In this document: one piece after another, positions 9,246 through 33,171 of the stretch
How positions within the stretch are numbered: position 1 is the first letter of the stretch
Layout of the letters: each line of letters opens with the position of its first letter
NCBI GenBank assembly: GCA_017476545.1
Contig: JAFUZP010000041.1
Span: 1 to 39,834 of the forward strand
Direction: 5' to 3'
Origin: Alloprevotella sp.
GTDB lineage: Bacteria > Bacteroidota > Bacteroidia > Bacteroidales > Bacteroidaceae
DNA length: 39,834 nucleotides
Position numbers and translations under genes: made by a program
Notes under the pieces: generated by a model
What the model saw: the letters and a program-made list of their open reading frames with translations, nothing else
Told to the model about the DNA's origin: nothing
Database searches by the model: none

Positions 9246-9333
9246 CCAACCCTATGGTTACGGAAAACTAACCGTAGGGTTACGATGCACTACCCATAGG
9301 GTTACGCGCCACTAACCGTAGGGATAAGAAAAC
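9246..9333. repeat. 22-bp unit array, copy A (four units)
   Basis: Units begin at 9246, 9268, 9290 and 9312. Each has the form CTAACCNTANGGTTACG plus five variable bases; the 12-bp core AACCNTANGGTT is a palindrome. The array lies between divergent genes, upstream of both the pepP promoter (9130-9160) and the 9395 promoter, so neither transcript should include it. Related arrays occur at 14476, 22204 and 33062. Confidence 0.9.
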
Positions 9334-9394
9334 TGCTCCCGGCGTGCGAACCAAAAACCGGGGCGCGGAGCGCACGGATGTGACGAAATAGTCT

Positions 9395-9402
9395 TACCTT
9401 CG
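9395..9402 (+). promoter_or_regulatory. -7 box of the ATP-grasp-like gene
   Basis: TACCTTCG matches TAnnTTYG and lies 21 bases before the ATG at 9424. No convincing -33 box was found. Confidence 0.45.
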
Positions 9403-9423
9403 CATCCTGAAAACACCCTCCGC

Positions 9424-10356
9424 ATGGTACTCCACGTATTCAACCCCTCGCACGACGAGGCACTTGCTGCCGGCACGCACCGCTACACCCCATCCCGTGC
9501 GGCGCAGCGGATGGAGCGCGAACTGGCGGAACTCCCCCTGCGTTGGGCTTCGCCGGGCGATGCCGTCCTGCTGCCCGGCAAGGCGGTCCGCTGGGAGGCG
9601 GTGGAGCGGATTGAGCCGTGGGGATGGGACACACTCGTGAAGCACCGCCTGCGACAACTCGGCGCGCCGGAACGGCTGCTGCCCACCGACGAAGCCTTGC
9701 AAACCTTGCGCGCCCTCAGCTCCCGCGCAACGGCGGTGCGGCTACTCCCCCTGCTGCGGGGCGACGTGGAAGGCACGTTCGGCGAATCGCGGATGTGCCG
9801 TTCGGAGGACGAGGTGCGGCGGGCCCTTGCGGACTATGGCCCGAGCGTGCTGAAGTCACCGTGGAGCTGTAGCGGGCGGGGTGTGTTCCGGATAGTCGCC
9901 GACACGGACTCTAAAGGAATGAACCGCGTGCGCCGCATCCTGCGCACGCAAGGGGCGGTCGAGGCCGAGCCATACTATGCCGATTGCCGGGACTTCGCCA
10001 TGGAGTTCTACTACAGCGGTGGTGAACTCCGCTACGAGGCCCTCTCCCTCTTCAGCACCGATCCAGCGGGCGGCTACCGAGGGAATACGCTCGCCCCGCA
10101 GGAGCGGTTGCAGGAAATGCTCCTTGCCTCTGTCCCCGCGCAAGCTATGGCCGCCCGGGACACGATCGGCAGGGTGCGCGAAGCAATCCGCCGCCACCTG
10201 CCCCGCCTGCTGGGCGACGGCTACGAGGGACCGCTGGGCGTGGACATGCTGATGCGCCCCGACGGGACGCTCCACCCCTGTCTGGAAATAAACTTGAGGC
10301 AGACAATGGGGCGCGCAGCTTGGCTTTGTCACAAAAAAGGCGTACCTTTGCAGTAA
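9424..10356 (+). CDS. ATP-grasp-like protein of unknown substrate
   Basis: I do not know this 310-residue family by name, but its layout suggests an ATP-grasp ligase. LKSPWSCSGRGVFRI (about 143-157) resembles the ATP-binding lysine and glycine-rich loop, and GPLGVDMLMRPDGTLHPCLEINLRQTMGR near the C-terminus has the E-x-N-x-R pattern that binds magnesium in ATP-grasp enzymes. The N-terminal FNPSHDEALA and YTPSRAAQRM are conserved-looking and not part of that fold. No signal peptide is present, so it is cytoplasmic. It is transcribed from its own promoter; the promoter of the next gene lies inside its last codons. An amide- or peptide-bond-forming role is inference. Confidence 0.6.
   Translation: MVLHVFNPSHDEALAAGTHRYTPSRAAQRMERELAELPLRWASPGDAVLLPGKAVRWEAVERIEPWGWDTLVKHRLRQLGAPERLLPTDEALQTLRALSSRATAVRLLPLLRGDVEGTFGESRMCRSEDEVRRALADYGPSVLKSPWSCSGRGVFRIVADTDSKGMNRVRRILRTQGAVEAEPYYADCRDFAMEFYYSGGELRYEALSLFSTDPAGGYRGNTLAPQERLQEMLLASVPAQAMAARDTIGRVREAIRRHLPRLLGDGYEGPLGVDMLMRPDGTLHPCLEINLRQTMGRAAWLCHKKGVPLQ
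10320..10350 (+). promoter_or_regulatory. Promoter inside the 3' end of the ATP-grasp-like gene
   Basis: TTG at 10320-10322, exactly 20 bases, then TACCTTTG at 10343-10350. It overlaps the last codons of the preceding gene and drives the barrel-protein gene at 10384, probably with thiL. Confidence 0.6.
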
Positions 10357-10383
10357 CGTAACCAACAAAACAAAATCTTTCGT

Positions 10384-10863
10384 ATGAAGAAACTCCTTGC
10401 AGTGCTGCTCGTATCCCTTGCAGCCACAGGCGCAAAAGCGCAATTCGCACAGGGCACTAAGTACATCGGTGCCTCGGTCTCCAACTTCGGTGTGTCCTAC
10501 AACAAGAAAAGCAAGTTCAGCCTTGGCGTGAACGCGGAAGCGGGCTACTTCTTCGCCGACTGCTGGATGGCACGCGCCACAGTGGGCTACAATTACCAGA
10601 AGGACGGGGCGAACGACTTCAACATCGGGGCGGGCGCACGCTACTACATCCTGCAGAACGGACTTTTCTTCGGCGCAGGAGTGGAGTTCAAGCACCAGAA
10701 GCCGAGCCACAACGACCTGCTTATCCCTGTCGAGGTGGGCTACACGTTTTACCTTAACCACTACATCGCCATCGAACCGGCGGTGTACTACAAGATGAGC
10801 ACCAACGACTTCGGCGATGGCAGCACGGTGGGCCTGCGCATCGGACTGGGCTATTACTTCTGA
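10384..10863 (+). CDS. Small outer-membrane beta-barrel protein
   Basis: The 159-residue product has a signal peptide (residues 1-19, cut after AKA before QFAQG). The rest alternates aromatic and polar residues in the manner of an eight-stranded barrel of the OMP_b-brl type, with repeated GY/GA/YY strands and a C-terminal phenylalanine (GLGYYF), the usual outer-membrane assembly signal. No ligand-binding motif is visible. It has its own promoter and is followed after 11 bases by thiL, so the two may share a transcript without a functional link. Confidence 0.75.
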   Translation: MKKLLAVLLVSLAATGAKAQFAQGTKYIGASVSNFGVSYNKKSKFSLGVNAEAGYFFADCWMARATVGYNYQKDGANDFNIGAGARYYILQNGLFFGAGVEFKHQKPSHNDLLIPVEVGYTFYLNHYIAIEPAVYYKMSTNDFGDGSTVGLRIGLGYYF

Positions 10864-10874
10864 ACCCTCCGGCT

Positions 10875-11903
10875 ATGCAAATCTCCGAACTCGGCGAATT
10901 CGGCCTCATCAGCCACCTGACAAAAGGCCTACAGCCGCAGAACGCTTCCACGGTGCTAGGCGTGGGCGATGACTGCGCCGTGCTCTCCTACCCCGACAAG
11001 CACGTACTCGTGACGAGCGACATGCTGATGGAGGGCATCCACTTCGACCTCGTTTACACCCCACTCCAGCACTTAGGCTACAAAGCGGCGCAGGTAAACT
11101 TCTCCGACATCTACGCCATGAACGGCACACCCCGGCAACTCGTCGTGAGCATCGCCGTAGGGAGCCGCCTGCAAGTGGAGCATCTGGACGACTTCTACGC
11201 CGGGTTGCGCCTTGCCTGCGAACGCCACGGGGTGGACATTGTGGGTGGTGACACGTGCAGCTCCCTGACGGGACTGGCCATCAGCCTGACGTGCATCGGC
11301 GAGGCTGCCCCGGAGGACATCGTGCGGCGTAGCGGGGCACAAGTGAACGACCTCGTCTGCGTGAGCGGTAACCTCGGCGCAGCCTATATGGGACTACAGC
11401 TCATGGAACGCGAGAAGCAGGTGTTCGAGAGCCGCCCCGCGACAGATATCGAAGCGGCACAGCCCGACTTCAGCGGCCACGAGTACCTGCTCGAACGCCT
11501 CCTCAAGCCCGAGGCGCGGCGCGACATCGTACAACGGCTGCGCGAAGCAGGCATACGGCCGACTGCCATGATGGACGTCAGCGACGGACTGTCGTCCGAA
11601 CTGCTCCATATCTGCCAGTCCTCAAAGTGCGGATGCCGCATCTACGAAGAGCGCATACCGCTCGACTACCAAACGGCCGTATGCGCGGAAGAGTTCAACA
11701 TGAACGTCACGACCTGCGCCCTGAACGGTGGCGAGGACTACGAACTACTCTTCACCGTTCCTCTGACGGCACACGAGAAGGTCTCCGCCATTGAGGACGT
11801 GCGCGTCATCGGAGCCATTACGAAGCCCGAAACGGGGGCCATCCTCGTCACCCGCGATGGTAACGAGTTCCCCCTCCGCGCCCAAGGCTTCAAGGCATTC
11901 TAG
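10875..11903 (+). CDS. thiL: Thiamine-monophosphate kinase
   Basis: ThiL phosphorylates thiamine monophosphate to the active cofactor thiamine pyrophosphate. The 342-residue product has the ThiL/PurM fold signature: VGDDCAVL (Asp32-Asp33), LVTSDMLMEGIHFDL (Asp49, substrate and magnesium binding), and GGDTCSS. MMDVSDGLSSELLH and NGGEDYELLFTV in the C-terminal half are conserved ThiL segments. Length is typical. The gene follows the barrel-protein gene by 11 bases and has no promoter of its own that I can see. No other thiamine gene is in the window. Hairpins at 11929-11949 and further on end the transcript. Confidence 0.92.
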   Translation: MQISELGEFGLISHLTKGLQPQNASTVLGVGDDCAVLSYPDKHVLVTSDMLMEGIHFDLVYTPLQHLGYKAAQVNFSDIYAMNGTPRQLVVSIAVGSRLQVEHLDDFYAGLRLACERHGVDIVGGDTCSSLTGLAISLTCIGEAAPEDIVRRSGAQVNDLVCVSGNLGAAYMGLQLMEREKQVFESRPATDIEAAQPDFSGHEYLLERLLKPEARRDIVQRLREAGIRPTAMMDVSDGLSSELLHICQSSKCGCRIYEERIPLDYQTAVCAEEFNMNVTTCALNGGEDYELLFTVPLTAHEKVSAIEDVRVIGAITKPETGAILVTRDGNEFPLRAQGFKAF

Positions 11904-11928
11904 GGAAGTGAAATTTGATGCGGCAGCA

Positions 11929-11949
11929 GCAACGGAGGAGGTCCGTTGC
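11929..11949 (+). terminator. Stem-loop after thiL
   Basis: GCAACGGA (11929-11936) pairs perfectly with TCCGTTGC (11942-11949) around a GGAGG loop. The stem can extend by CAGC/GCTG after a small bulge, and is followed by AGTTATATAT. It probably ends the thiL transcript. Confidence 0.45.
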
Positions 11950-12073
11950 CGCTGAGTTATATATACCCCGTCACAACGAACTATCCCACGCCATCTCAAG
12001 ACGTGAATAAGGCTTCGTATGGTATTTGCGGAAGGGACTCCATTCACTTGGATGCACGTGGGAAACAAGGGAA

Positions 12074-12106
12074 AGTGCAGGCGGCAGCCTGAGCCTCGCC
12101 TGCACT
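12074..12106. terminator. Stem-loop in the thiL/dehydrogenase gap
   Basis: AGTGCAGGCG (12074-12083) pairs perfectly with CGCCTGCACT (12097-12106) over a 13-base loop. No T run follows. It lies between convergent genes and could back up termination from either side. Confidence 0.4.
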
Positions 12107-12134
12107 CAAAGATTTGTTATCACGAAGTAAGCAG

Positions 12135-12168
12135 CTTCCCCGCGCAGGTTGTGTCCTGCGCGGGGAAG
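12135..12168. terminator. Strong bidirectional hairpin before the dehydrogenase stop
   Basis: CTTCCCCGCGCAGG (12135-12148) and CCTGCGCGGGGAAG (12155-12168) form a perfect 14-bp stem with a 6-base loop. It lies 35 bases beyond the stop of the leftward dehydrogenase gene. No clear T run exists on either side. The rest of 11904-12202 has no gene I can support. Confidence 0.55.
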
Positions 12169-12202
12169 TATTGGGTAATAGCCGGGAGATAGCCTGCGGG
12201 AA

Positions 12203-13354
12203 TTACAGCATCAGCTGGTAGATGGCGCGGGTACGGGCTTCGTCAAGCGGGAGGTAGTTGCCAAAGACGGTGCCTTTGGTTACGTGTACGTGGGCGTTCA
12301 CGGCTTCGAGGTCGAAGCCCGTAATGCCAAGTTCCGCGATGGTAACGGGCATACCGATACTGCGTAGCCATGCCTTGAAGCGTGCGATACCCTCCAGGGG
12401 AGTATCGGCCTGCCAGACGTTACGCGCCCAAGGGACAAGCTTCGCGGGGTGGTGCTCCGCCATATAGGTGAGCCATGCGGGGAAGACGACGGCAAGTCCG
12501 GCACCATGCGTCACGCCGTAAAACGCGCTCAGTTCGTGTTCCATGCCATGCGAGGCCCAGTCTTCCTCGTTTCCTGTCCCACAGATGCCGTTGTGCGCCA
12601 GCGTTCCGCACCACATCAGGGCGGCGCGCGCGTCATAGTCGGTAGGGTTCGCGATGGCCTGTGGCGTTACGTCGCGGATGGTGCGCATGACAGCCTCGCC
12701 CACCGCGTCGGGTACTTCCGTGTGCGGGGTGTTCGTGAAGTAACGCTCCATGATGTGCGCCATCATATCCGTCGCCCCGGCAGCCGTCTGATAGGCGGGA
12801 AGGGAATAGGTCAGTTCGGGATTCATCACAGCGAAGCGGGGCCGGAGCAAATAGGGCGTGCGGATGCTCACTTTTCGGTGCGTGGCAGTCTGCGTGATGA
12901 CGGAGTTACCCGAGCCTTCACTCCCCGCAGCGGGAATAGTAAGCACGACGCCGACAGGCAGCGCGCGGCCTATCGTTTCCTTTCCCTCGTAGAAGTCCCA
13001 AAAATCCCCCTCGTAGGGGATACCGGCAGCCATCGCCTTGGCGGCATCTATCACGGAGCCGCCACCGACGGCCAGCACGAAGTCCGCTCCGGCCTGCCGC
13101 CCCTTCCCGATGCCGGCATAGACCTGTTCGTCCGTCGGATTGGGTAACACGCCACCAAAGGCCACGTAGTCAAGCCCGGCCTGCCGCAACACGTCCTCCA
13201 CGCTGGGGAGCAAACCGCTTCGGACAGCGTGTCCGCCGCCATAGACGAGCAACACGCGGTTGCCGCCGAAGCGGCGCACCAGCTCGCCCGTGCGGGCTTC
13301 AACGCCCCGACCGAACACGAAGTCCGTCGGACTGTAGTATTCAAAGTTCTGCAT
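12203..13354 (-). CDS. Iron-type alcohol dehydrogenase, YqhD/BdhA-like (NADPH aldehyde reductase)
   Basis: The 383-residue group III alcohol dehydrogenase should reduce aldehydes to alcohols with NADPH in the cytoplasm. The dinucleotide site is seen as YGGGHAVRSG (38-47) and VGGGSVIDAAKA (96-107). The four metal ligands are in place: Asp196 and His200 (GATDMMAHIMERYF), His269 (SHGMEHELSAFYG) and His283 (VTHGAGLAVVFPAW). These line up almost residue for residue with those of Escherichia coli YqhD. Length is normal. It lies 51 bases downstream of a hemerythrin/LuxR-type regulator gene on the same strand, with no promoter between, so it is probably co-transcribed and possibly controlled by that protein. 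Aldehyde detoxification or fermentative alcohol production are both possible. Confidence 0.9.
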   Translation of the reverse strand: MQNFEYYSPTDFVFGRGVEARTGELVRRFGGNRVLLVYGGGHAVRSGLLPSVEDVLRQAGLDYVAFGGVLPNPTDEQVYAGIGKGRQAGADFVLAVGGGSVIDAAKAMAAGIPYEGDFWDFYEGKETIGRALPVGVVLTIPAAGSEGSGNSVITQTATHRKVSIRTPYLLRPRFAVMNPELTYSLPAYQTAAGATDMMAHIMERYFTNTPHTEVPDAVGEAVMRTIRDVTPQAIANPTDYDARAALMWCGTLAHNGICGTGNEEDWASHGMEHELSAFYGVTHGAGLAVVFPAWLTYMAEHHPAKLVPWARNVWQADTPLEGIARFKAWLRSIGMPVTIAELGITGFDLEAVNAHVHVTKGTVFGNYLPLDEARTRAIYQLML

Positions 13355-13405
13355 AATCTGTTATTCGTTCCTTTCCTACCCCTGAACCGCCCGTTGCAGA
13401 GGGTC

Positions 13406-14347
13406 TCAGAGCTTCACCTCGTCAAGTTTCACGATGCCGCTGGCAATGGCGTAAATCGTGAGGCCGCTGACGGAGTGGATATCCAGTTTGCGAAAAATGT
13501 TTTTCCGGTGCGTCTGCACGGTGTTGGGGGAGATGAAGAGCTTTTCCGCCGTCTCCTTGGCCGACAGGCCGCGCACGATGCAGGAAACTATCTCCTTCTC
13601 CCGTTCGCTGAGCGCTTCCTCGGGAGCGGTGTCTGCGACCTGTTCCTCCACCTCAGGCTGCCCCTCGGCGGTTCGTGCCTCCAGCAACTGGACGGCCGGG
13701 ACGAAGAGGTCGTCCTCCACATGGCAGTGTTGGCGCATGTCGGCCTCGCAGTTGAAAATGTCGAAGAGGACGTTGTTGAGCTGTTCCCCTGCGGCCGGGT
13801 CGGCATAGTACTTGATGATGAGGTTTTTGAGCTCCTGCAGTTTCTTGTCCGTGCCGACGTGGCTGCGCGCGAACTGCGCTATCTGGAAGCCCGGCGTGCG
13901 CTCGCCTTGCAACAGACGCTCCACATAGGTAAACACTTTCTTATCCTCGAAGTTCATATGTCGGCGGACATCGCCCATGTACTCGTCGTAGAATTTGAGG
14001 ATAAGGTAGGCCACCTCGTTCGCCTGCGAGCAGTCAATGGCCCCTACGAGCTTGCGACGGATAGCCGGAAGCAGGAAGTTCAGGAAGTAAGTGTGCGCCT
14101 GCCTCAGGTAGTCCGTCAGGGCACGGACGGATATGTGTTCCACATAGTGCAAGGCGGACTCGCCCCCGTTTTTCATATAGTTGGCGACAGCGAGGAATGT
14201 CGGCGCATCAACGCCGTGCGCCTCGCACACTTCGCGCACGCTCTTCTCGCTAAAACCGAGCGAGATGCCGAAACGGCTCATCATCTGCAGCAGGTGGTAT
14301 TCGTCGCAGATGACATCAAACATTTTATCAGTCTCTTTGTAGTCCAT
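13406..14347 (-). CDS. ScdA_N-like/hemerythrin/LuxR-HTH regulator
   Basis: This 313-residue protein joins three parts. Residues 20-56 resemble the ScdA/RIC N-terminal (DUF542) segment, but its usual Cys-Cys pair is replaced (RFGISLGFSEKS). Residues about 75-225 form a hemerythrin-like helical bundle with His85, His130, Glu134 (HMNFE), His163, His207 and Glu211 (HCHVE), the same ligand set and spacing as the di-iron site of E. coli YtfE/RIC. Residues 246-305 are a LuxR/GerE helix-turn-helix (LSEREKEIVSCIVRGLSAKETAEKLF, then SPNTVQTHRKNI). It therefore looks like a one-component transcription factor that senses oxygen, nitric oxide or redox state through a di-iron centre. It leads a probable operon with the YqhD-like dehydrogenase. 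Confidence 0.85.
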   Translation of the reverse strand: MDYKETDKMFDVICDEYHLLQMMSRFGISLGFSEKSVREVCEAHGVDAPTFLAVANYMKNGGESALHYVEHISVRALTDYLRQAHTYFLNFLLPAIRRKLVGAIDCSQANEVAYLILKFYDEYMGDVRRHMNFEDKKVFTYVERLLQGERTPGFQIAQFARSHVGTDKKLQELKNLIIKYYADPAAGEQLNNVLFDIFNCEADMRQHCHVEDDLFVPAVQLLEARTAEGQPEVEEQVADTAPEEALSEREKEIVSCIVRGLSAKETAEKLFISPNTVQTHRKNIFRKLDIHSVSGLTIYAIASGIVKLDEVKL

Positions 14348-14381
14348 AAGATACGGTTGCGCCTGAATGGCCGCAGCGCTG

Positions 14382-14389
14382 CGAAATTA
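14382..14389 (-). promoter_or_regulatory. -7 box of the regulator gene
   Basis: On the minus strand TAATTTCG (14389-14382) matches TAnnTTYG and lies 35 bases upstream of the start at 14347. A -33 TTG at the right distance is not evident, as expected for a promoter that may need an activator. Confidence 0.4.
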
Positions 14390-14475
14390 GCGTTTCCGCT
14401 TGGAAAACGGAAACGCCGCGCCCAAATTCGCGCACTTATAGGGATCATCCTGACATACATATCCGCACGGGAAAC

Positions 14476-14563
14476 CTAACCATAGGGTTACGGCGGACTG
14501 ACCCTACGGTTACGAAAAACTAACCCTACGGTTACGGTGGTCTAACCCTATAGTTAGGAAAGC
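14476..14563. repeat. 22-bp unit array, copy B (four units)
   Basis: Units begin at 14476, 14498, 14520 and 14542, each close to CTAACCNTANGGTTACG plus five variable bases. The last unit is decayed at its end. As in copy A, the array lies between divergent genes and upstream of both promoters (14382-14389 leftward, 14680-14710 rightward). Confidence 0.9.
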
Positions 14564-14679
14564 GCCGCCCCTGCACGCACAGAACGAGGCCGGCACAGAC
14601 ATTGCCGAAGCCGGTGCAAATTGTCCCTATACGGAGGCATAATTACAGGGCTGTGCTGGAAAATGCCCTGTTTAGGGTA

Positions 14680-14710
14680 TTGCGCAAGAAGGCGGCCCGC
14701 CGTACTTTTG
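14680..14710 (+). promoter_or_regulatory. Promoter of the porin/imelysin/cytochrome operon
   Basis: TTG at 14680-14682, exactly 20 bases, then TACTTTTG at 14703-14710. Transcription should begin near 14716, about 27 bases before the first ATG at 14743. Confidence 0.6.
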
Positions 14711-14742
14711 CAGCCGAAAATCGGAAAAACTACACACAAAGC

Positions 14743-16074
14743 ATGACAAAGAAAATATTCTCCATAGCCTTCGCGCTGTCCGCCGTCCTCGGTGCCAGCG
14801 CATCCGAACCGCCCGCCCCCGTGGACACCGCCTTCACGAAGTTCCGCATCGGCAGTTACGGCGAAATGCTTACGCAGTTCAAGGACTACGGACTGAACCG
14901 TTACAGCGGCGTACCGACGGGAAACATGAAAAAACACCACGCGGAGATTTCCATTCCCCGCTTCATCCTGGGCGGCGACTACAAGATTACGCCCAAATGG
15001 ATACTGGGCGCGGAAATCGAATTCGAGAGCGGAGGAACGGGACAGGCTCTGGAAATTGAAAGCGGCTCGGCCTCGGAAAACGGCGAATACGAGCTGGAAC
15101 ACGAAAAAGGCGGCGAGGTGGTGCTGGAACAGTTCCACCTGACGCGCCTCATCGTACCCGAATTTAACATCCGCGCGGGGCACATGGTTCTCCCCATCGG
15201 CCTGACGAATACGCACCACGAGCCCATCAACTTTTTTACCGCCGCGAGGCCGGAAGGCGCAACGACGCTGCTGCCCTCTACATGGCACGAGACGGGAGTG
15301 GAATTCTTCGGCGCGTTCGGAAAAGGCTATGCCTCCTTCGACTATGAGGCGATGGTGACGGCCGGCCTCAACCCGAACGGATTCAACATATATAACTGGG
15401 TAAAAGGCGGCAAGCAGGGGCTGTTCGAGACAGACAACTTCTCCGCGCCGGCCTACACCGCACGGCTGAACTGGACGGGCGTACCGGGACTGCGCCTCGG
15501 GGCGAGCGTCTTCTACAATCCCAACGCGGGCAAGAACGCCGACAAGCTGATTACTTACGCCGGACTGGGCAAGATAAACATCCTGCTCTACTCCTTTGAC
15601 GCGCAATATATAAATAAGTACGTAACGGCACGTGCCAACTTCCTCTCGGGCAACATCCCCGAAACGCGCGCACTGACCCAGGCTAACCGCAGCCTGGGTA
15701 TGGGACAGCCCTACAGCACGCCAAAGCCCGGCTACTTCATCGCGAAGCGCGCCATCGACTGGAGCGTGGAGGCCGGCCTCAACCTCAAGGCGTTATTCCC
15801 GCGCGTGGAGAAGTTCCCGGCCCTCTACCCCTTCTTCCATTACAACTACTACAACCCGCAGGAAAAAGGCGAGGGCGGTGCCGTCATGGAGCAACGCTGC
15901 CAAGTGAGCCTCTGGTCGGCCGGTCTGAACTGGCGCATCCTGCCCGGGCTTGTCGTCAAGGCGGACTACACGACGCGTCAGATAGGGACCAGCAAAATCT
16001 TCGGCAAAGGAAAATACAACAGCGAGAACGAGTTCCGCCTCGGACTTGCCTACAACTTCTGGTTCACCCGATAG
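14743..16074 (+). CDS. Porin-like outer-membrane barrel protein 1
   Basis: The 443-residue product has a signal peptide (residues 1-20, MTKKIFSIAFALSAVLGASA) and then strand-rich sequence with alternating aromatic residues up to a C-terminal NFWFTR. Segments such as FRIGSYGEMLTQF, FNIRAGHMVLPIGLTN and WSVEAGLNLKAL are reminiscent of the phosphate-selective porin O/P (OprP-like) fold. The start at 14743 is chosen for the signal peptide and because the promoter ends at 14710. It heads the operon with imelysin and two heme-c proteins, so it may pass iron, a chelate or an anion, but the substrate cannot be read from sequence. The imelysin gene follows after 37 bases. Confidence 0.75.
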   Translation: MTKKIFSIAFALSAVLGASASEPPAPVDTAFTKFRIGSYGEMLTQFKDYGLNRYSGVPTGNMKKHHAEISIPRFILGGDYKITPKWILGAEIEFESGGTGQALEIESGSASENGEYELEHEKGGEVVLEQFHLTRLIVPEFNIRAGHMVLPIGLTNTHHEPINFFTAARPEGATTLLPSTWHETGVEFFGAFGKGYASFDYEAMVTAGLNPNGFNIYNWVKGGKQGLFETDNFSAPAYTARLNWTGVPGLRLGASVFYNPNAGKNADKLITYAGLGKINILLYSFDAQYINKYVTARANFLSGNIPETRALTQANRSLGMGQPYSTPKPGYFIAKRAIDWSVEAGLNLKALFPRVEKFPALYPFFHYNYYNPQEKGEGGAVMEQRCQVSLWSAGLNWRILPGLVVKADYTTRQIGTSKIFGKGKYNSENEFRLGLAYNFWFTR

Positions 16075-16111
16075 TCTTGAACATACTATTCACTACTCAA
16101 TAACTAAAACA

Positions 16112-17284: not shown

Positions 17285-17335
17285 GCGGACATACAACGAC
17301 GCACTTCCTGCGGGAGTGCGCGGCTACCACCTCAA

Positions 17336-17370
17336 AGCGAGGGCAGGGCCTGCACGGTCCAGCCCTCGCT
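17336..17370 (+). terminator. Stem-loop between imelysin and DUF1111 genes
   Basis: AGCGAGGGC (17336-17344) pairs with GCCCTCGCT (17362-17370) over a 17-base loop. No T run follows and no new promoter is visible before 17421, so it may set the ratio of imelysin to downstream proteins (partial termination or 3'-end protection) instead of ending the operon. Confidence 0.4.
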
Positions 17371-17420
17371 GTAGCGCGAAAAAGAGTTAGTGAGTTTCTT
17401 CTAAACATAACGCACTGTAT

Positions 17421-22146: not shown

Positions 22147-22202
22147 CCGCAGGGCTACGGCGGGCGGGTTATCCGTCCGCCGTAGCCCTGCGGTCAGTTT
22201 TT
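22147..22202 (+). terminator. Strong terminator of the porin/imelysin operon
   Basis: CCGCAGGGCTACGGCGG (22147-22163) pairs perfectly with 22177-22193; four more pairs (one G-U) extend it inward to about 21 bp with a 5-base loop GTTAT. It is followed by TCAG and five T residues (22198-22202). Confidence 0.85.
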
Positions 22203-22203
22203 C

Positions 22204-22291
22204 GTAACCCTAGGGATAGGAAGAAGTAACTATAGGGTTACGAAGAACTACCCCTGGGGCCACGGAATCGTGACCCCAGAGGTAAGGATGA
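22204..22291. repeat. 22-bp unit array, copy C (four units)
   Basis: Units begin at 22204, 22226, 22248 and 22270. The first two match GTAACCNTANGGTTACG well; the last two are decayed (cores ACCCCTGGGGCC and GACCCCAGAGGT) but keep the 22-base register and much of the dyad symmetry. It begins immediately after the T run of the operon terminator and ends 36 bases before the stop of the convergent gene, again in DNA that should be little transcribed. Confidence 0.85.
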
Positions 22292-25627: not shown

Positions 25628-25642
25628 ATCAATCCTTTTGTA

Positions 25643-26026: not shown

Positions 26027-26069
26027 AAGTACAAGTTTTCTGTTATTACGTTTCCGAGGGAATCGGAGG

Positions 26070-26077
26070 CGAAGGTA
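26070..26077 (-). promoter_or_regulatory. -7 box of the lipoprotein operon
   Basis: Minus-strand TACCTTCG (26077-26070) matches the consensus and lies 43 bases upstream of the lipoprotein start. No clear -33 TTG at standard spacing. Confidence 0.4.
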
Positions 26078-26199
26078 CGAAAAACTTGCCACAACTCCGA
26101 ACGTTTTTCCCGCCCGCATCCGTTTTCCCCGCCGCCCCCATACACATTAATTATATATACGCGCGCGAGAGTACGTCACTCCGTTACGGGATTTTTTCG

Positions 26200-26207
26200 T
26201 ACCTTCG
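26200..26207 (+). promoter_or_regulatory. -7 box of the AlkD-like gene, very close to its start
   Basis: TACCTTCG ends seven bases before the ATG at 26215, so the transcript would have almost no leader. An A+T-rich block (about 26143-26160, then alternating CG) lies some 40 bases upstream; a near copy occurs at 27331-27358. Confidence 0.45.
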
Positions 26208-26214
26208 CGGCAGA

Positions 26215-26913: not shown

Positions 26914-26924
26914 CGACACGGTAG

Positions 26925-27182
26925 ATGATTACATCTGACGTGGCCCAGCGCTTCTTCTATAAGGACGGTGTCAAGGACGACGCCACAGAGGTGAAGAAGA
27001 GCGGCACCTTCACCATCGACGAGAAGCACAAGACCATCGAATGCACCGACAGCGACGGCAACAAGTTCTTCCGCCTGACGAACATTGAATTTGGAACAGG
27101 CTACATGACAGCCACCCTCACCTTCTACGACCTGGACAAGACCTACGATGTCATGCTTTCCCGCAGCATAAGCAGCAAATAA
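26925..27182 (+). CDS. Short orphan protein, possibly a 5'-truncated remnant
   Basis: The 85-residue frame begins 11 bases after the AlkD-like gene and ends before a good terminator. It lacks a signal peptide. The sequence alternates strands and turns (KSGTFTIDEKHKTIECTDSD, then LTNIEFGTGYMTATLTFYDL) as in the second half of small exported lipocalin-like or beta-sandwich proteins of Bacteroidales. The missing N-terminal half and export signal suggest a remnant joined to the AlkD-like gene by deletion, though a genuine small cytoplasmic protein is possible. I do not recognise the family. Confidence 0.5.
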   Translation: MITSDVAQRFFYKDGVKDDATEVKKSGTFTIDEKHKTIECTDSDGNKFFRLTNIEFGTGYMTATLTFYDLDKTYDVMLSRSISSK

Positions 27183-27238
27183 GTCATGGTCTGTTTACAC
27201 GTCAGACGCTTACGTCTGCCGTGTTCCGGCAAACAAAA

Positions 27239-27284
27239 TCTCCCGCAGAGCCTTTGCGCTTTGCGGGAGATATTATATTTTTGC
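27239..27284 (+). terminator. Terminator after the short orphan gene
   Basis: ATCTCCCGCA (27239-27248) pairs with TGCGGGAGAT (27263-27272). Four further pairs, one of them G-U, extend the stem to 14 bp with a 6-base loop. ATTATATTTTT follows, giving a good T-rich end. Confidence 0.75.
27254..27284 (+). promoter_or_regulatory. Promoter overlapping the terminator
   Basis: TTTG at 27254-27257 (in the terminator loop region), 19 bases, then TATTTTTG at 27277-27284. If used, it gives a leader of almost 290 bases before the BspA-like gene at 27578. The sharing of bases with the terminator makes either call less certain. Confidence 0.4.
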
Positions 27285-27483
27285 GCATTGAAACGGGTAA
27301 AAATCTTTACTTCCACCATAATGTCCGCCGCATACATATATAATATATACACGCGCGCAGAGGCCCCGCAGAAAGCCTCTCGCGGCGTTTCCGCGTGCGG
27401 AATGCCAATTTTACCCCCCCCTATAAATCCGGTTGTAATACAAGCGTTTACGGCGCTTTAGCGCACGCTTTCCCATACTTCTT

Positions 27484-27526
27484 GCGGCCTGCTTCTCCAC
27501 CCTTCCGCGGTGGCGAGGCAGGCCGC
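27484..27526 (+). other. Long hairpin in the leader of the BspA-like gene
   Basis: GCGGCCTGC (27484-27492) pairs with GCAGGCCGC (27518-27526), and CCACC pairs with GGTGG further inside. TTTGCG follows, so it may be a terminator/attenuator 50 bases ahead of the start codon. The rest of 27285-27577 has a short A+T-rich block followed by alternating CG (about 27331-27358) and nothing else I can assign. Confidence 0.45.
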
Positions 27527-27577
27527 TTTGCGCATGCAATCCACTAAATTTATTCACCAATAAAACAACAAAACATT

Positions 27578-28201
27578 ATGAAAACAAAACTTTTTGCATT
27601 TATAGCACTGATGCTGCTCCCGCTGGGTGCGTGGGCAGAAGACGTTGAAATCAATGGTATCATCTATTCATTGGATAAAGATGAGAAAACCGCCAGCGTG
27701 ATAGCTGATGAATATAGTGGTGATATAGTCATACCTGAGTTAATAAAATATAACGGAAATACATATTCTGTGACAAGCATAGAAGACTATGCGTTTGAAG
27801 AGTGCTCCGAACTGACGAGTATCACCATTCCTAATTCTGTGACGAGCATCGGATATTTTGCATTCTACTATTGCGAGGGCTTGGAAGACATCTACGCCCT
27901 GCGCATGGATCCGAGAGAATATAACGCTGATGATTGTTTCTACGATGTGCCCATTTCCACCTGCATTCTCCACGTCCCTGCAGGCTGCAAGGAGATTTAT
28001 GCTAGTACATATCCTTGGAGCGAGTTTGTGAACATCGTGGAAGATGCCCCCACGGTCATCGCAGCCCCCTCAATGGACGGTGAAAAAGGTTCAATGTCCA
28101 ATGGACAACGGTCTATGATTTACGACCTGCTGGGACGCCGCGCTAAGCAGCCGGCACGTGGTCTCTACATCCAGGAGGACGGCAGGAAGTTCATACGATA
28201 A
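27578..28201 (+). CDS. BspA-like leucine-rich surface protein with C-terminal tail
   Basis: The 207-residue product has a signal peptide (residues 1-20, cut near AWA before EDVEI) and BspA/LRR_5 repeats: YSVTSIEDYAFEECSELTSI, then TIPNSVTSIGYFAFYYCEGL. After a cysteine-containing capping region comes a linker and the tail MIYDLLGRRAKQPARGLYIQ, ending RKFIR, which matches the Prevotella/Bacteroidales exported-protein C-terminus. With only about two and a half repeats it is short for the family, which often has dozens. The gene is visibly more A+T-rich than its surroundings, suggesting recent acquisition. A 23-bp repeat array starts right at its stop codon. Confidence 0.85.
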   Translation: MKTKLFAFIALMLLPLGAWAEDVEINGIIYSLDKDEKTASVIADEYSGDIVIPELIKYNGNTYSVTSIEDYAFEECSELTSITIPNSVTSIGYFAFYYCEGLEDIYALRMDPREYNADDCFYDVPISTCILHVPAGCKEIYASTYPWSEFVNIVEDAPTVIAAPSMDGEKGSMSNGQRSMIYDLLGRRAKQPARGLYIQEDGRKFIR

Positions 28202-28338
28202 ACGTGTGCTCATAGCCCCGTTTAAGATAAGCGCACACCTCGCTTTGAGGTGTGCGCTTATCTTGATGCGAGGTGTCCGCACATCTCGACATGAGCTTTG
28301 CGCTTACCTCAACACGAGGTGTGCGCACATCTTTTTAC
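28201..28338. repeat. Second 23-bp tandem array (six units)
   Basis: Units begin at 28201, 28224, 28247, 28270, 28293 and 28316. The consensus begins GAGGTGTGCGCACATCTC; the first two units are decayed. The core TGTGCGCACA is a 10-bp palindrome, perfect in the last unit. The period equals that of the 6108-6360 array, and both have a GCGC centre followed by ACATC, so the two may be distant relatives. The array starts at the last base of the BspA-like stop codon. Confidence 0.8.
28226..28262 (+). terminator. 16-bp hairpin formed by two opposed array units
   Basis: GATAAGCGCACACCTC (28226-28241) is the exact reverse complement of 28247-28262, with loop GCTTT. It lies 25 bases after the BspA-like stop codon and would act as a structural terminator, though no T run follows. 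Confidence 0.55.
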
Positions 28339-28470
28339 GAAAGATTATACTACACAAAATCAGGAGGTTATAACCGCGAAACACGCGGAGGGCACGAAGG
28401 CGCTGGTTTGTTGCGTGCCCTCGAGTTTGTCGCAGCCCTACAGGCTGCCGTCCCTCTCGGCACTAAACAA

Positions 28471-28672
28471 CCCAGGGCGCCGCCCTGGGCTAAAAGCCCC
28501 CTCCCACCTCCCCCCTCCGGGGGAGGTGTTCAAAGCGGCGAAGGAGAGTGACATATAATTACAAGCCAATCCCCGACCAACTTCTTTTTGTTGGCTGGGG
28601 ATTATTATATAAGTATATTTCAAGGGGTATCGGAAAGCCTCCCCCGGAGGGGGGGGGAGGTGGGAGGGGGCT
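28471..28672. repeat. Inverted-repeat element with 32-bp G/C-rich arms
   Basis: The arm at 28495-28526 (starting AGCCCCCTCCCACCTCCCCC) is repeated in inverse orientation at 28638-28672 (ending GGTGGGAGGGGGCT), with three extra G residues. Between them is a stem-loop (28568-28603, AATCCCC/GGGGATT outer pairs) followed by an A+T tract. Just outside the left arm CCCAGGGCG/CGCCCTGGG (28471-28489) forms another perfect 9-bp stem with one loop base. It looks like a REP- or MITE-type intergenic element; no coding frame is credible. The stretch 28339-28470 contains nothing else I can assign. Confidence 0.65.
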
Positions 28673-28695
28673 GTGGCTGGAGGAGGCTGGGCCTT

Positions 28696-29196
28696 TTATT
28701 GTTTGCTCTCGATGAGTTGCGGGTGGTAGTCAGCCTTCTTCACTACCTTAGCGTCGATCATCTCCACGCGGACGACCTCGCGCTTGTTGGCGGGATTGGC
28801 CACGAGCGTGCCGCGCCAGTGCACCCACTCCTTGTCCACGGGGTGGAAGCCGACGGTCACTATCTCCGTCTTCGTATAGCCCTCCACCGTGCGCGAGATG
28901 AGGCCGCCGCTGGTGTAGGAGGGCATTTCGCGCGTCACCATGAAGCGTGCGGACTCCACGCAGCCGCTATAGACGCTGCTGTAGGTGTATTCGATGTTTG
29001 AGACGAGGACGCCCTTCGTGATGTATTCGCCGCGGATGCCGAAGACTTCGTGCTCGCCGTCAGCGTCCCAGGCCACGCCGCCGAGCAGGGAGGGAAAGAT
29101 GAGTGTGCCGTCGATGTCGTCGTTGATGGTGACGAACTGCGCGCGGAGCTGCGTCGTGAGCAGTAGCGCAATGCTGATAAGCAGGATTCTTTTCAT
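28696..29196 (-). CDS. Exported protein of unknown function
   Basis: The 166-residue product has a signal peptide (residues 1-19, cut after LRA before QFVTI). The mature part looks like a small beta-rich domain with a VAWDADGEHEVFGIRGEYIT segment and a single Cys (YSGCVES), and ends in a charged tail. There is no lipobox, so it is probably periplasmic or surface-exposed. I do not recognise the family. It is monocistronic, diverging from the DPP III gene, with its promoter at 29233-29240. Confidence 0.7.
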   Translation of the reverse strand: MKRILLISIALLLTTQLRAQFVTINDDIDGTLIFPSLLGGVAWDADGEHEVFGIRGEYITKGVLVSNIEYTYSSVYSGCVESARFMVTREMPSYTSGGLISRTVEGYTKTEIVTVGFHPVDKEWVHWRGTLVANPANKREVVRVEMIDAKVVKKADYHPQLIESKQ

Positions 29197-29232
29197 GGTG
29201 TTCAGGAGCTTTAAATCTGTTTGTTACGGGGA

Positions 29233-29240
29233 CAAAGATA
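29233..29240 (-). promoter_or_regulatory. -7 box of the exported-protein gene
   Basis: Minus-strand TATCTTTG (29240-29233) lies 36 bases upstream of the start at 29196. Confidence 0.5.
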
Positions 29241-29283
29241 GGAATTTTCCTGATATATGGGGCTGCGATACGTATCTTTTCCT

Positions 29284-29291
29284 TACTTTTG
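29284..29291 (+). promoter_or_regulatory. -7 box of the DPP III gene
   Basis: TACTTTTG lies 57 bases upstream of the ATG at 29349. No -33 TTG at standard distance. It is 43 bases from the divergent -7 box at 29233-29240. Confidence 0.5.
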
Positions 29292-29348
29292 CACGGCAAA
29301 CGGACGGTACCCGTCACTTGTCACTTGTCACTATAATTCCACACTATA

Positions 29349-31346
29349 ATGAAAAAAGCTCTTTTAATCATGATGATTGCTACAGCCACGACGGCGGCGG
29401 CGCAGCAGGAGGACTCGTTCCCCTACAACAACGAGCGCTTCGCCGACATCCAGATGCTACGCTACAAGGTGGAGGGTTTCGAGAACCTCTCGCTCCGCCA
29501 GAAAACGCTCATCTACTACCTCTCAGAGGCCGCCCTGCAGGGCCGCGACATCCTCTGGGACCAGAATGGACGCTACAACCTGCGCATCCGCCGCATGCTT
29601 GAGACGGTATATACCGACTTCACGGGCGACCGCACGACGGAGGACTGGAAGGCCTTCGAGGTGTACCTGAAGCGCGTGTGGTTCAGCAGCGGCATCCACC
29701 ACCACTACGGCTCGGAGAAGTTCCAGCCGGGATTCAGCGAGGCGTGGCTCCGCGACGTGCTCCGCAGCATCCACTATACGCTTGAGGAGGAGATATTCCC
29801 CGTCATCTTCGACCCCACGGTGATGCCCATGCGCACCAACCAGCGCGACGGCGAGGACCTCGTGCGGACCTCCGCAGGCAACTACTACGGCCCGGACGTG
29901 ACGCAGGCCGAGGCCGAGGAGTTCTACGCGCAGCGCAAGCCCGCCGACGACCCCTGCCCCATCATGATGGGCTACAACTCGCGCCTCGTGAAGGACGCCG
30001 GCGGAAGGCTGCGCGAAGAGGTGTGGCGCGAAGGCGGCCTCTACGGACAGGCCATCACGAAGATCATCGCCAACCTGCAGCAGGCGCGTCCCTTCTGCGA
30101 GACGCAGCAGCAACAGCGCGTCATCGACAAGCTCATCGAATACTACCGCACGGGCGACCTGCGCACCTTTGACGAGTACAGCATCCTGTGGTTGCAAGCC
30201 ACGGAGGACCTCGTGGACTTCGTGAACGGCTTCACGGAGACCTACGGCGACCCGCTCGGCATGAAGGCGTCGTGGGAAAGCATCGTGAACTTCAAGGACC
30301 TGGAGGCCACGCAGCGCACGGAGAAGCTGAGCGCCAACGCGCAATGGTTCGAGGACCACAGCCCCGTGGACCCGCGCTTCCGCAAGGAGAAGGTGAAGGG
30401 CGTGTCCGCGAAGGTCATCACGGCTGCCATCCTGGGCGGTGACCTCTACCCCAGCACCGCCATCGGCATCAACCTGCCCAATTCCGACTGGGTGCGCAAG
30501 GACTACGGCTCGAAGAGCGTCACCATAGGCAACCTCACGGACGCCTACAACAAGTCAGCACGCGGCAGCGGCATGGGCAAGGAGTTCGTCATCGACAAGG
30601 AGACGCTGGCCCTCATCGAACAGTACGGCGACCTCTGCGACGACCTGCACACCGACCTCCACGAATGTCTCGGACACGGCAGCGGCAAGCTCCTGCCCGG
30701 CACGGACCCCGACTCCCTGAAAGCCTACGGCGCCGCCATCGAGGAGGGACGCGCCGACCTCTTCGGCCTCTACTACGTGGCCGACCCGAAGCTTGTGGAG
30801 CTGGGCCTCACGCCAAACGCCGAGGCATACAAGTCGCAGTACTACACCTACATGCAGAACGGCCTGCTGACGCAGCTCGTGCGCATCAAGCCCGGGCAGA
30901 ACATCGAGGAAGCCCACATGCGCAACCGCGCCTTCATCGCCCACTGGGCATTGGAACACGGCAAGGCGGACAAGGTCGTAGAGCTCGTCAAGATTAAAGG
31001 CAAGACCTACGTGAAGATTAACGACTACGAAGCCCTGCGCGGCCTCTTCGGCAAACTGCTGGCCGAGGTGCAGCGCATCAAGAGCGAAGGCGACTACGAA
31101 GCCGCACGCGACCTCGTGGAGACATACGGCGTGAAGGTGGACCCCGCCATCCACCGCGAAGTGCTCGGCCGCTACGAACGCCTGCACCTCTCGCCCTACA
31201 AAGGCTTCATCAACCCCCGCTACAGCGCCCTGCGCGACGCACAAGGCAACATCACCGACGTGCGCATATCCTACACGGAGGGCTACGCCGAACAGATGCT
31301 CCGCTACAGCCGAGAGTACAACAATCTGCCCGACGTGAACGAGTGA
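29349..31346 (+). CDS. Dipeptidyl-peptidase III (M49), exported
   Basis: The 665-residue zinc peptidase releases dipeptides from peptide N-termini. The zinc motif is HECLGH (His438, Glu439, His443), the bacterial variant with six residues as described for Bacteroides thetaiotaomicron DPP III, and the third ligand is Glu466 in EEGRADLFGLYYV. The spacing from His443 to Glu466 also fits that enzyme. Residues 1-19 form a signal peptide (MKKALLIMMIATATTAAAQ), so the enzyme acts outside the cytoplasm. Other conserved M49 segments include WYDHSP-like WFEDHSPVDPRFRK and TAAILGGDLYPSTAIGINLPNSDW. Length is normal. Ends at a terminator shared with the convergent gene. Confidence 0.94.
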   Translation: MKKALLIMMIATATTAAAQQEDSFPYNNERFADIQMLRYKVEGFENLSLRQKTLIYYLSEAALQGRDILWDQNGRYNLRIRRMLETVYTDFTGDRTTEDWKAFEVYLKRVWFSSGIHHHYGSEKFQPGFSEAWLRDVLRSIHYTLEEEIFPVIFDPTVMPMRTNQRDGEDLVRTSAGNYYGPDVTQAEAEEFYAQRKPADDPCPIMMGYNSRLVKDAGGRLREEVWREGGLYGQAITKIIANLQQARPFCETQQQQRVIDKLIEYYRTGDLRTFDEYSILWLQATEDLVDFVNGFTETYGDPLGMKASWESIVNFKDLEATQRTEKLSANAQWFEDHSPVDPRFRKEKVKGVSAKVITAAILGGDLYPSTAIGINLPNSDWVRKDYGSKSVTIGNLTDAYNKSARGSGMGKEFVIDKETLALIEQYGDLCDDLHTDLHECLGHGSGKLLPGTDPDSLKAYGAAIEEGRADLFGLYYVADPKLVELGLTPNAEAYKSQYYTYMQNGLLTQLVRIKPGQNIEEAHMRNRAFIAHWALEHGKADKVVELVKIKGKTYVKINDYEALRGLFGKLLAEVQRIKSEGDYEAARDLVETYGVKVDPAIHREVLGRYERLHLSPYKGFINPRYSALRDAQGNITDVRISYTEGYAEQMLRYSREYNNLPDVNE

Positions 31347-31373
31347 GCCGGCTGCCGATGGCCGCACAGATAC

Positions 31374-31408
31374 AGAAGAGCCTCCCCACCGACGGGGGAG
31401 GCTCTTCT
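31374..31408. terminator. Bidirectional terminator between DPP III and secreted-protein genes
   Basis: AGAAGAGCCTCCCC (31374-31387) pairs perfectly with GGGGAGGCTCTTCT (31395-31408) over a 7-base loop; TGTTAT follows on the plus strand. It lies between two convergent stop codons (31346 and 31435). Confidence 0.75.
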
Positions 31409-31434
31409 TGTTATGCGGTTGCGCGGGTCGCGCC

Positions 31435-32841
31435 TTACTTCATGACCTTCTTACCGTTCACGATGTAGATGCCCTTCGTAGCGGCATTCACGCGGCGACC
31501 CTGCAGGTCGAACGTACCGCTCTGCTGTGCAGGCTTCTCCGTCAGCGGAGTGCTGATACCCGTGTACTGGTCAATCTCTTCCGCATCGTAGGACAGGTTG
31601 ATACCGGCCACGATGGTGGGATTGAATAAAGCGGGGTCGCCCCAGTTGAACACGTCCACACTCTGCAGCAGTTCCTGGGAATTAGTCGCCCCTGTCTCAG
31701 AGTTGGTGACATTAATACGTACATAGGCGTAGCCGAAGCTCTCCTGTGCGGGGCTGTCCACCACCATAGTTACAGGTGCCCAGCTGTACTCGCTGCCTTC
31801 CATGGGCACAATCTGGGCGACGAAGCTGCCATTAACGAGGAGCGGAGTACCCGTAGAAGGAGCGAAATGTACGCCGTAGCCCATCAAGTCGCCGTCCTCG
31901 TATCTGTGTGCATCGCTCACAGACTCTATCAGGAAGTAAGCAACCGGTTCACCCATCTGCCCGTCTTCGGAAATAGGCTGGATGGCCACGCCGATGTCCC
32001 CGGGCTGGGGCGCGCGCTCATCGCTGTAGATGAACATGTCTATCCCCTTGAGCAGGGCTGTGGCCTCAGTATTCATGGGGAAAAACTCCAAGAAGGCGAG
32101 GGTCTCAGCTCCCGTGATGCCAGCCGCCGCGCCGCCAAAACCATTAGCAAGGTTGGCGTTTGCCGTGGGCATGTTCATACCGAAAAGATTACCAATATTG
32201 GCATTACCCAAATAATAGGTCGGGTCAAAATTACCCACGGGGATATCCACGTATTCGCCACCCTCCGTCTGGAATACGCCGCCGGAACTGTATCCGCAGA
32301 GCATGCCCTGGGCTGCGAAGCTGGTAGTGTCGCTCTCCGTCTTGGCCGTCAGCGCGCTACCGCCCACACGGCTGGTAGCGATGGCCATCGGGGCGGGCCA
32401 ATAGCCGTAGCTGGGAGTAACCGTCAGCGAAGAGTCGGCAGCCGAGACGGCCTGCTCGCCCCAGATAAGCTCCTCCAGCTCGTCCTCGGAAACGGAATAC
32501 AACCACTTGCTGTTCTCGCCCACGAAGTCACCGTAGAAAGTGACGTTCACGTCGCTCGGGCCGATGGCAAGGCCATCCTGTCCCCAATTGGTCTGGTACG
32601 TCTCCGTGAACCAGAAGAAGCCGTCCGGGCGGTAGGCCACGGTGGAGGGGTGGGTCGTGGTGACACGGGCGGGCAGGCGCATCACCTGCGTGCCGGCCGG
32701 CTTCGCGCCTTCCAGGCTGAGGGCCTTGGGCTTCGCCGTCATGGCCACGCGGTTCTGTACACGCTCCTTAGCCACGAACTGCTGGGCGCTAACGCCCGTC
32801 GCGATGGCCGCAAGAGCCAAAAAGAGTAAAGATTTTCTCAT
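31435..32841 (-). CDS. Secreted protein with Prevotella-type C-terminal sorting tail
   Basis: The 468-residue product begins with a signal peptide (MRKSLLFLALAAIATGVSA, before QQFVAK). The bulk is beta-rich and aromatic, with repeats of Gly/Asn/Ala in the middle (NANIGNLFGMNMPTANANLA) and no catalytic motif I know. The end, TFDLQGRRVNAATKGIYIVN followed by GKKVMK, is the classic Bacteroidales C-terminal tail associated with type IX secretion or surface attachment. It is monocistronic. The start is ATG 32841; a TTG two codons upstream is not needed. Confidence 0.8.
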   Translation of the reverse strand: MRKSLLFLALAAIATGVSAQQFVAKERVQNRVAMTAKPKALSLEGAKPAGTQVMRLPARVTTTHPSTVAYRPDGFFWFTETYQTNWGQDGLAIGPSDVNVTFYGDFVGENSKWLYSVSEDELEELIWGEQAVSAADSSLTVTPSYGYWPAPMAIATSRVGGSALTAKTESDTTSFAAQGMLCGYSSGGVFQTEGGEYVDIPVGNFDPTYYLGNANIGNLFGMNMPTANANLANGFGGAAAGITGAETLAFLEFFPMNTEATALLKGIDMFIYSDERAPQPGDIGVAIQPISEDGQMGEPVAYFLIESVSDAHRYEDGDLMGYGVHFAPSTGTPLLVNGSFVAQIVPMEGSEYSWAPVTMVVDSPAQESFGYAYVRINVTNSETGATNSQELLQSVDVFNWGDPALFNPTIVAGINLSYDAEEIDQYTGISTPLTEKPAQQSGTFDLQGRRVNAATKGIYIVNGKKVMK

Positions 32842-32942
32842 AATCAATACGTTTATTAGTGAAACATAAAATAACTGTCTGAGCGTAGTTCTGCGGTGGC
32901 TGCCAAAGCCCCGTCCGCACAGGGCAATAGTGGCACACGTTG

Positions 32943-32950
32943 CAAAATTA
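32943..32950 (-). promoter_or_regulatory. -7 box of the secreted-protein gene
   Basis: Minus-strand TAATTTTG (32950-32943) lies about 100 bases upstream of the 32841 start. A short dyad GGGAAA-ATA-TTTCCC (32968-32982) lies between it and the divergent promoter at 32989 and could be an operator. Confidence 0.4.
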
Positions 32951-32988
32951 CCGCAAAATCCCCGGACGGGAAAATATTTCCCCGTTTT

Positions 32989-33020
32989 TTTGTGCCATAC
33001 CCCACGTTTTGTTACCTTTG
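32989..33020 (+). promoter_or_regulatory. Promoter of the GH92 operon
   Basis: TTTG at 32989-32992, exactly 20 bases, then TACCTTTG at 33013-33020. Start codon of the GH92 gene is at 33260, so the leader is about 235 bases and contains the copy D repeat array. Confidence 0.6.
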
Positions 33021-33061
33021 CGCAAGGAAGCGCGCCCCCATCCCGGATGGGGCACGGGCCG

Positions 33062-33171
33062 CCGCCCGCAGGGCCACGGTTACCCGACCCTATGGGTACG
33101 GAGTCCTAACCGCAGGGTTACGGGAAACTAACCATAGGGTTACGACAAACTAACCACAGGGTTAAAGAAAC
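33062..33171. repeat. 22-bp unit array, copy D (five units), inside a leader
   Basis: Units begin at 33062, 33084, 33106, 33128 and 33150; a sixth decayed unit may start at 33040 (it keeps GGG and ACG in register). The three central units match CTAACCNNAGGGTTACG closely. Unlike copies A-C, this array lies downstream of a well-formed promoter (32989-33020) and so should be transcribed as part of the GH92 leader. Between it and the start codon (33172-33259) I see nothing assignable. Confidence 0.88.

Follow-up and report, generated by a model that had tools for sequence, protein, structure and literature searches.

Evenly spaced intergenic arrays of four phased near-palindromes in an Alloprevotella genome

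The Noc, SlmA and MatP sites are examples of dispersed palindromes of operator type to which a chromosome protein binds; they occur singly, and their sequence is stable. Here we describe arrays of phased 22-bp near-palindromic units in Alloprevotella sp., four of which lie in a 39,834-nucleotide stretch of DNA (assembly GCA_017476545.1, contig JAFUZP010000041.1; hereafter the window). Unlike the Noc, SlmA and MatP sites, these are four-site arrays, and their sequence changes between related species. Their even spacing along the chromosome is our main new result. We favour, tentatively, the reading that they are docking sites of a DNA-binding protein that marks or organises the chromosome between transcription units.

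Three described repeat systems resemble the arrays. BrickBuilt of Porphyromonas gingivalis, another member of the Bacteroidales, is a species-restricted family of intergenic tandem 23-nt repeats, some of them within a miniature inverted-repeat transposable element (MITE) with short terminal repeats; the part of the source that we consulted gives 19 copies of 1 to 22.8 units, varying between strains, and proposes long stem-loops (PMC4596501). The arrays here differ in keeping four units, in numbering at least 139 copies, in their largely independent half-sites and in their even spacing. In the Alloprevotella genome they also lack terminal repeats and, except at seven paralogous loci, a common leader or tail. 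In place of a variable number of 23-nt repeats, 51 of 64 arrays hold four 22-bp units. The REP, BIME and REPIN sequences with their RAYT transposases are likewise short, intergenic, high-copy palindromes that differ between species, and the consulted parts of the two sources (PMC6006769, PMC3733652) report among them a class from Bacteroidetes whose structures are atypical. Unlike these, the arrays hold four units at 22 bp, lack a GT[AG]G foot in their consensus and overall covariation, and are not consistently linked to a RAYT gene. PINSR of Prevotella intermedia, with about 180 lineage-specific intergenic copies, no terminal inverted repeats and no known function, is a 188-bp sequence for which the consulted part of the source describes neither palindromic tandem units nor spacing (PMC4755523). 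We found no description of such arrays in the open-licence literature, and the part of PMC5771137 consulted adds nothing further on them. Phages, plasmids and viral contigs gave no real match, the one hit being 23 bases in two records of a single phage (E 0.8).

Copy number, spacing and placement

The unit is a 14-bp near-palindrome, TAACCNTANGGTTA, with an 8-bp spacer, commonly CGGMRAAC and at times inverted. These 8-nt spacers have a common consensus and are not the long unique spacers of clustered regularly interspaced short palindromic repeats (CRISPR). In the Alloprevotella genome (1.98 Mb in 46 contigs, 80% complete), the exact core matched 85 times per strand and its reversed control never; a directional form, TAACCNTANGGTTACG, gave 31 + 28 (59) matches against none in the control. 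Sixty stretches around exact matches, together with the window, yielded 64 arrays, with four units in 51, five in nine, six in three and three in one. Units were extended at a cut of at least 9 of 14 consensus positions, two N positions always counting, a choice that influences how the arrays divide between four and five units. A weak signal about 12–14 bp outside the arrays suggests further, decayed units.

A profile model, built from 51 arrays by sequence only, returned 190 matches at E ≤ 0.01, a lower bound that includes both strands and partial matches. The first look with this model scored 150 of 700 candidates, and counts taken among the matches listed are lower bounds. Merged with four otherwise known arrays, the listed matches define at least 139 distinct loci, to which a later exhaustive scan adds a few more. 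With this many loci and an empty reversed control, the four arrays of the window are not a product of chance. Seven of the loci (L032, L033, L037, L040, L044, L068 and L082) have up to about 590 bp of flank in common, 71–91% identical pairwise; they seem to derive from duplication of the start region of a gene, and each carries its four-unit array in the corresponding position.

The exhaustive scan read through 435 kb of the genome, including the window and one further 14-kb stretch. Its 36 gaps between arrays had a median of 8.6 kb and a coefficient of variation (CV) of 0.45, with a single gap below 5 kb where uniform placement predicts 14.9. Random intergenic placement, a choice among intergenic stretches of at least 150 bp, gave about 11 such gaps and never fewer than three (P at most 0.0003 for the CV). 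Across the 28 contigs of known size, 3 of 91 gaps fell below 4 kb against 25.6 expected, and none of 2,000 simulations was as regular. Placement along this chromosome is thus non-random. In simulation, the gaps are matched by an exclusion zone of 5 kb, less well by one of 4 kb, and not by one of 3 kb or less. The fit of such a zone also favours the main rival account, selfish dispersal with target immunity, whereby a transposition protein would bind the arrays and block insertion within about 4–5 kb, producing even spacing without any host function. We regard that account as rather unlikely, and the arrays of a relative, described below, bear on it in both directions.

The original prediction placed the arrays only in gaps between genes, and this held. 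No overlap with a called gene above 20 bp was seen for 62 of the 64 arrays, and all 43 arrays of the 435-kb scan were intergenic, in a sequence in which 18% of bases count as intergenic and in which calling by codon usage recovered too few genes (269). Three of the 43 arrays are weak (scores 18–34, the others at least 53), and no shuffle scored above 5. Neighbouring genes were in tandem around 30 of the 64 arrays, convergent around 14 and divergent around 14, with four undetermined and two arrays partly overlapping a called open reading frame. Among 40 arrays of the scan, nine lay in convergent and nine in divergent gaps, and orientations resembled the background of other gaps. For neighbours within 600 bp, the median distance was 80 bp to a stop codon and 188 bp to a start codon.

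These placements weigh on two further explanations. Operators of a global transcription regulator, one of the roles floated in the original prediction, would suit operator-like near-palindromes with largely independent half-sites. Global gene regulation is nevertheless a most improbable role, because convergent gaps, where no promoter is expected, are used as often as divergent ones, both as in the background; nor is even spacing expected of the sites of a regulon. Insulators or roadblocks acting locally between transcription units or supercoils would be intergenic in every gene orientation and could lie nearer to stops than to starts, as the arrays do. They give no reason for arrays to stay at least about 5 kb apart, and the 43 arrays face 111 called intergenic stretches of at least 150 bp in the 435 kb, leaving over half of the gaps without one; we consider local insulation improbable. 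No evidence for phase variation or restriction turned up, although no test was aimed at either.

All four window arrays were located, with slight shifts of register, and the prediction that four gaps hold one 22-bp near-palindromic unit in register was borne out with four to five units each (Table 1). Array 3 is the most degenerate, and its fifth, outer unit sits just left of where the prediction had it begin. Array 4 has a weak fifth unit at about 33063, and the profile model also matches 33054–33120. The best named match of one window protein is from Alloprevotella rava, at 78% identity.

Table 1. Arrays of the window and other tandem palindromes of the same genome
Feature	Position	Strand	Description
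Array 1	9247..9326	+	four 14-bp near-palindromes (TAACCNTANGGTTA type) at 9247, 9269, 9291, 9313; period 22; flanking genes divergent
Array 2	14477..14556	+	four units, starts 14477, 14499, 14521, 14543; period 22; flanking genes divergent
Array 3	22183..22284	-	five units, starts 22183, 22205, 22227, 22249, 22271; period 22; flanking genes convergent
Array 4	33085..33164	+	four clear units, starts 33085, 33107, 33129, 33151; flanking genes divergent
Separate tandem-palindrome array, window	6127-6348		about nine 23-bp units around near-palindrome ATGTTGCGCAACAT; different sequence
GGTGTGCGCACATC family, window	28232-28332		four to five 23-bp units; also at L300:903 and L427:7732
22-bp tandem array, end of contig C21	L425 13510-13733		almost perfect GTAAATCAATTTAC+agcaaggt; runs off contig end
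22-bp near-palindrome array	L068 ~329-420		CCACGGCGGTATGG type

The remaining rows of Table 1 concern tandem palindromes of other sequence. The GGTGTGCGCACATC family recurs at two further loci and so counts as a second dispersed family of the genome. The array at the end of C21, perhaps a young one, lies downstream of what we take to be gcvT; the last TAACC array is about 8 kb away.

Relatives and the mobile element of G041

The exact 16-base form of the unit did not turn up in 24 genomes of the same genus and 16 others of the order, and a GTDB scan for an exact doublet gave no match, although the source record may itself be left out of that scan. The architecture is reused in relatives with unrelated palindromes. 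Among 80 loci fetched for an unrelated gene, with periods of 15–40 allowed, we found tandem near-palindromes of other sequence, 14 of 18 matches having periods of 21–23 and shuffles giving none; within the 18, L110 and L156 contribute two arrays apiece, the close relatives L114 and L118 have one array in common, and two or three matches are AT-rich simple repeats (L096, L098). Palindromes in this set include AAGTACACGTACTT, AATGGTTAACCATT, CGCACCACGTTGCG, GTCAATGCATTGAC and AAGATTGTAATCTT. Loci L156 and L160 are about 81% identical in DNA over 8.8 kb, yet their palindromes are unrelated. Within the genus, 37 stretches gave three matches (two in G011, one in G019), and one match, of period 21, came from 20 stretches of 20 kb in G004, G014, G015 and G016.

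Array positions vary as well. The L160 array sits inside a gap of about 180 bp between two orthologous genes; the same gap is about 1 bp in L144 and holds unrelated sequence in L113 and L156. In L114 and L118, which are 94% identical, homology ends within about 20 bp of the array edge, so arrays may mark points of rearrangement. A search for array positions conserved between species, in which 123 flanking proteins were compared with 34 array regions, gave 10 pairs, about the number expected by chance on a rough estimate, and two of the 10 are trivial, their loci having been fetched by that very gene.

The number of copies also varies among relatives. G041, the genome of L156, holds 199 matches of its unit plus spacer at no more than one mismatch (control 0), with 70 loci listed from exact matches, whereas G047 and G049 hold five and three matches of their own units at that threshold. 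Among 20 G041 copies read, 13 had four units, six had five and one had six. Two more such repeat families, GAAAATATATTTTC (21 bp) and TAATTGGGCAATTA (22 bp), occur beside the main one in G041; sites of these further families are L428 19945, L431 293, L430 ~17265 and L435 ~5197.

Many of the G041 arrays ride within a MITE, a finding that favours target immunity. The element is about 161 bp long with 15-bp ends, TGATAATCCGCAAAA, and reaches 183 bp in copies that seem one unit longer. Its left end was present in 13 of 20 sampled arrays and neither end in five, while L231 and L246 keep only the right end or a remnant of it. Among 17 listed pairs, seven (L329, L330, L334, L337, L339, L340 and L349) show, by eye, direct repeats of about 7–11 bp beside the ends, so that terminal inverted repeats and target duplications are both seen in this genome. 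The L160 array, whose counterpart gap in L144 measures about 1 bp, points the same way.

The Alloprevotella genome itself speaks against target immunity. Its 44 arrays with exactly four units outside the seven paralogous loci showed no terminal repeats, target duplications or common flanks above chance, their longest direct and inverted repeats equalling those of shuffled pairings. A match to a known transposon end, which would count against the original prediction, was therefore lacking in the genome of the window, and similar arrays are element-borne in G041. There, moreover, the spacing rule seems tied to the array itself, because bare and MITE-borne arrays were counted together. Over 160 kb with 12 arrays, none of nine gaps was below 4 kb (2.8 expected, P 0.02), nor was any of 16 gaps among listed exact units, a set that overlaps the first.

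Constraint, symmetry and the hairpin question

Across all units of the Alloprevotella arrays, the CC and GG columns are at least 90% conserved. Unrelated arrays agree at 0.76 of core and 0.50 of spacer positions, and farther out than about 15 bp the flanks are all but uninformative. Relics evolving neutrally would be expected to diverge to the same degree throughout. In 12 gapless copies of the G041 MITE, some of which were fetched by palindrome, the palindromes departed from consensus in 17 of 672 cells (2.5%), compared with 95 of 900 (10.6%) for interior positions outside them; in 10 copies from loci fetched by the ends, the figures were 16 of 560 and 63 of 650 (P 1e-6). The palindromes are under constraint, diverging less than the rest of the same insertions, and this too argues against dispersal with target immunity.

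The constrained near-palindromic sites and two-turn phasing of the original prediction thus found support; its further claim, that core mutations keep dyad symmetry, did not survive. Over the whole structure, 80.7% of cells were paired against 82.1% in shuffles, and 495 of 500 shuffles were as high or higher. At the central pair, both C and G are retained in 67 of 258 units, one of them in 189 and neither in only two, where about 36 double losses are expected from the margins. The ATAG and CTAT centres mirror each other, and each breaks pairing within its own unit: an asymmetric centre is tolerated or favoured. A partial exception is pair 3 of the outer units, where these units are looser and where 8 and 15 of 51 cells changed on both sides and still paired. 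Given no overall arm covariation, two largely independent half-sites, and with them a protein dimer, are favoured over a selected hairpin. A hairpin or RNA reading was rejected on the same covariation result, on DNA folds, whose z of -0.7 to -4.1 in five arrays can be produced by self-repetition alone, and on the lack of any Rfam match in the window at the gathering threshold.

Processing of REP-like hairpins by a Y1/HUH (RAYT) transposase is a very improbable origin of the arrays, although they are palindromic, intergenic and species-specific as such hairpins are, and pair 3 shows some two-sided changes. The genome of the window encodes one HUH protein of 332 aa with a long C-terminal part (L163 1252–2247), in whose translation putative DHLH and YLADNP motifs were read by eye. 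In G022 an HUH homolog has a 22-bp four-unit array about 70 bp away; in G009 one has a 22-bp four-unit repeat at 2.2 kb, and in G041 three have arrays at 0.5–2.5 kb. Four-unit repeats of other palindromes fall in the same 3.3-kb locus as a Y1 gene in L206 (21 bp) and L260 (22 bp), and more weakly in L262.

Beyond the missing covariation, several observations oppose a transposase link. No copy of the genome's main array palindrome was seen beside the Y1 genes of G041, G047, G049, G050 and G051, and those of the first three have other inverted repeats around them. Of 29 Y1 loci, 27 lack tandem palindromes; L211 has weak AT-rich ones only. In the genome of the window the nearest TAACC array is about 7 kb from the HUH gene, and HUH homologs in G003, G004, G012, G017, G021, G024 and G051 had no array in the stretches fetched. 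Homologs are sporadic, with one match in the genome of the window, several each in G004, G009, G021 and G041, and none found in 7 of 11 genomes, including the array carriers G045, G046, G048 and G050. With neighbouring palindromes not of the main type but with other four-unit repeats at two or three loci, a RAYT/REP link is unlikely, and that of the HUH protein to the arrays is weak. The Y1 transposases of relatives are of the Y--Q--HH type in all 16 loci listed; such genes in L261 (1380–2036), L263 and L267 lie between inverted repeats whose core resembles GCCCTGAAAGGGC.

A possible role in marking the chromosome

In the docking-site reading that we favour, each array would dock a putative protein that binds DNA sequence-specifically as a dimer. 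With its four operators spaced by two helical turns, an array could place four dimers along the same face of the helix, giving a compact complex. Lying between transcription units and typically 8–10 kb apart, such complexes may mark or organise the chromosome as domain or loop anchors. Architecture, copy number, intergenic placement, palindrome constraint and even spacing in the Alloprevotella genome are observed, as is reuse of the design in relatives; from these we infer the protein, its cooperative binding and its organising role. As the best fit for a dispersed intergenic family, the nucleoid-protein or boundary role of the original prediction is strengthened by the even spacing, while the symmetry argument offered for it falls away.

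Several points weigh against a chromosome-organising role. In G041 the CV of the gaps (0.80, against 0.85 at random; P 0.42) is not below random, because two stretches are long and empty; therefore the minimum distance is repeated there and the overall regularity is not. Period 21–23 matches were absent from the sampled 200, 60 and 60 kb of G004, G015 and G016, matches were also absent from 20, 40 and 80 kb of the same genomes, and three 12-kb stretches of G004 held no such arrays. With arrays missing from these parts of same-genus genomes, the function would be dispensable or replaced. Quick turnover of palindrome and positions is odd for a core organiser of the chromosome, and gene conversion between copies could also keep the palindromes alike.

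Docking by a host protein and target immunity may each hold in turn, with dispersal by an element followed by use by the host. A further and rather less probable reading is a chromosome-marking system of Prevotellaceae-like bacteria for which we met no description, in which a putative protein family with species-changing specificity would recognise arrays of exactly four phased near-palindromes, placed about every 8–10 kb between transcription units, and so divide the chromosome into nearly even units.

If true, evenly spaced, constrained docking arrays would give a direct handle on the division of the chromosome into domains of about 10 kb. A palindrome that changes between relatives while the four-by-22-bp design stays fixed would be a case of fast-evolving specificity in a DNA-binding system. 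If the spacing instead stems from target immunity, the arrays would be a clear natural record of that immunity across a whole chromosome.

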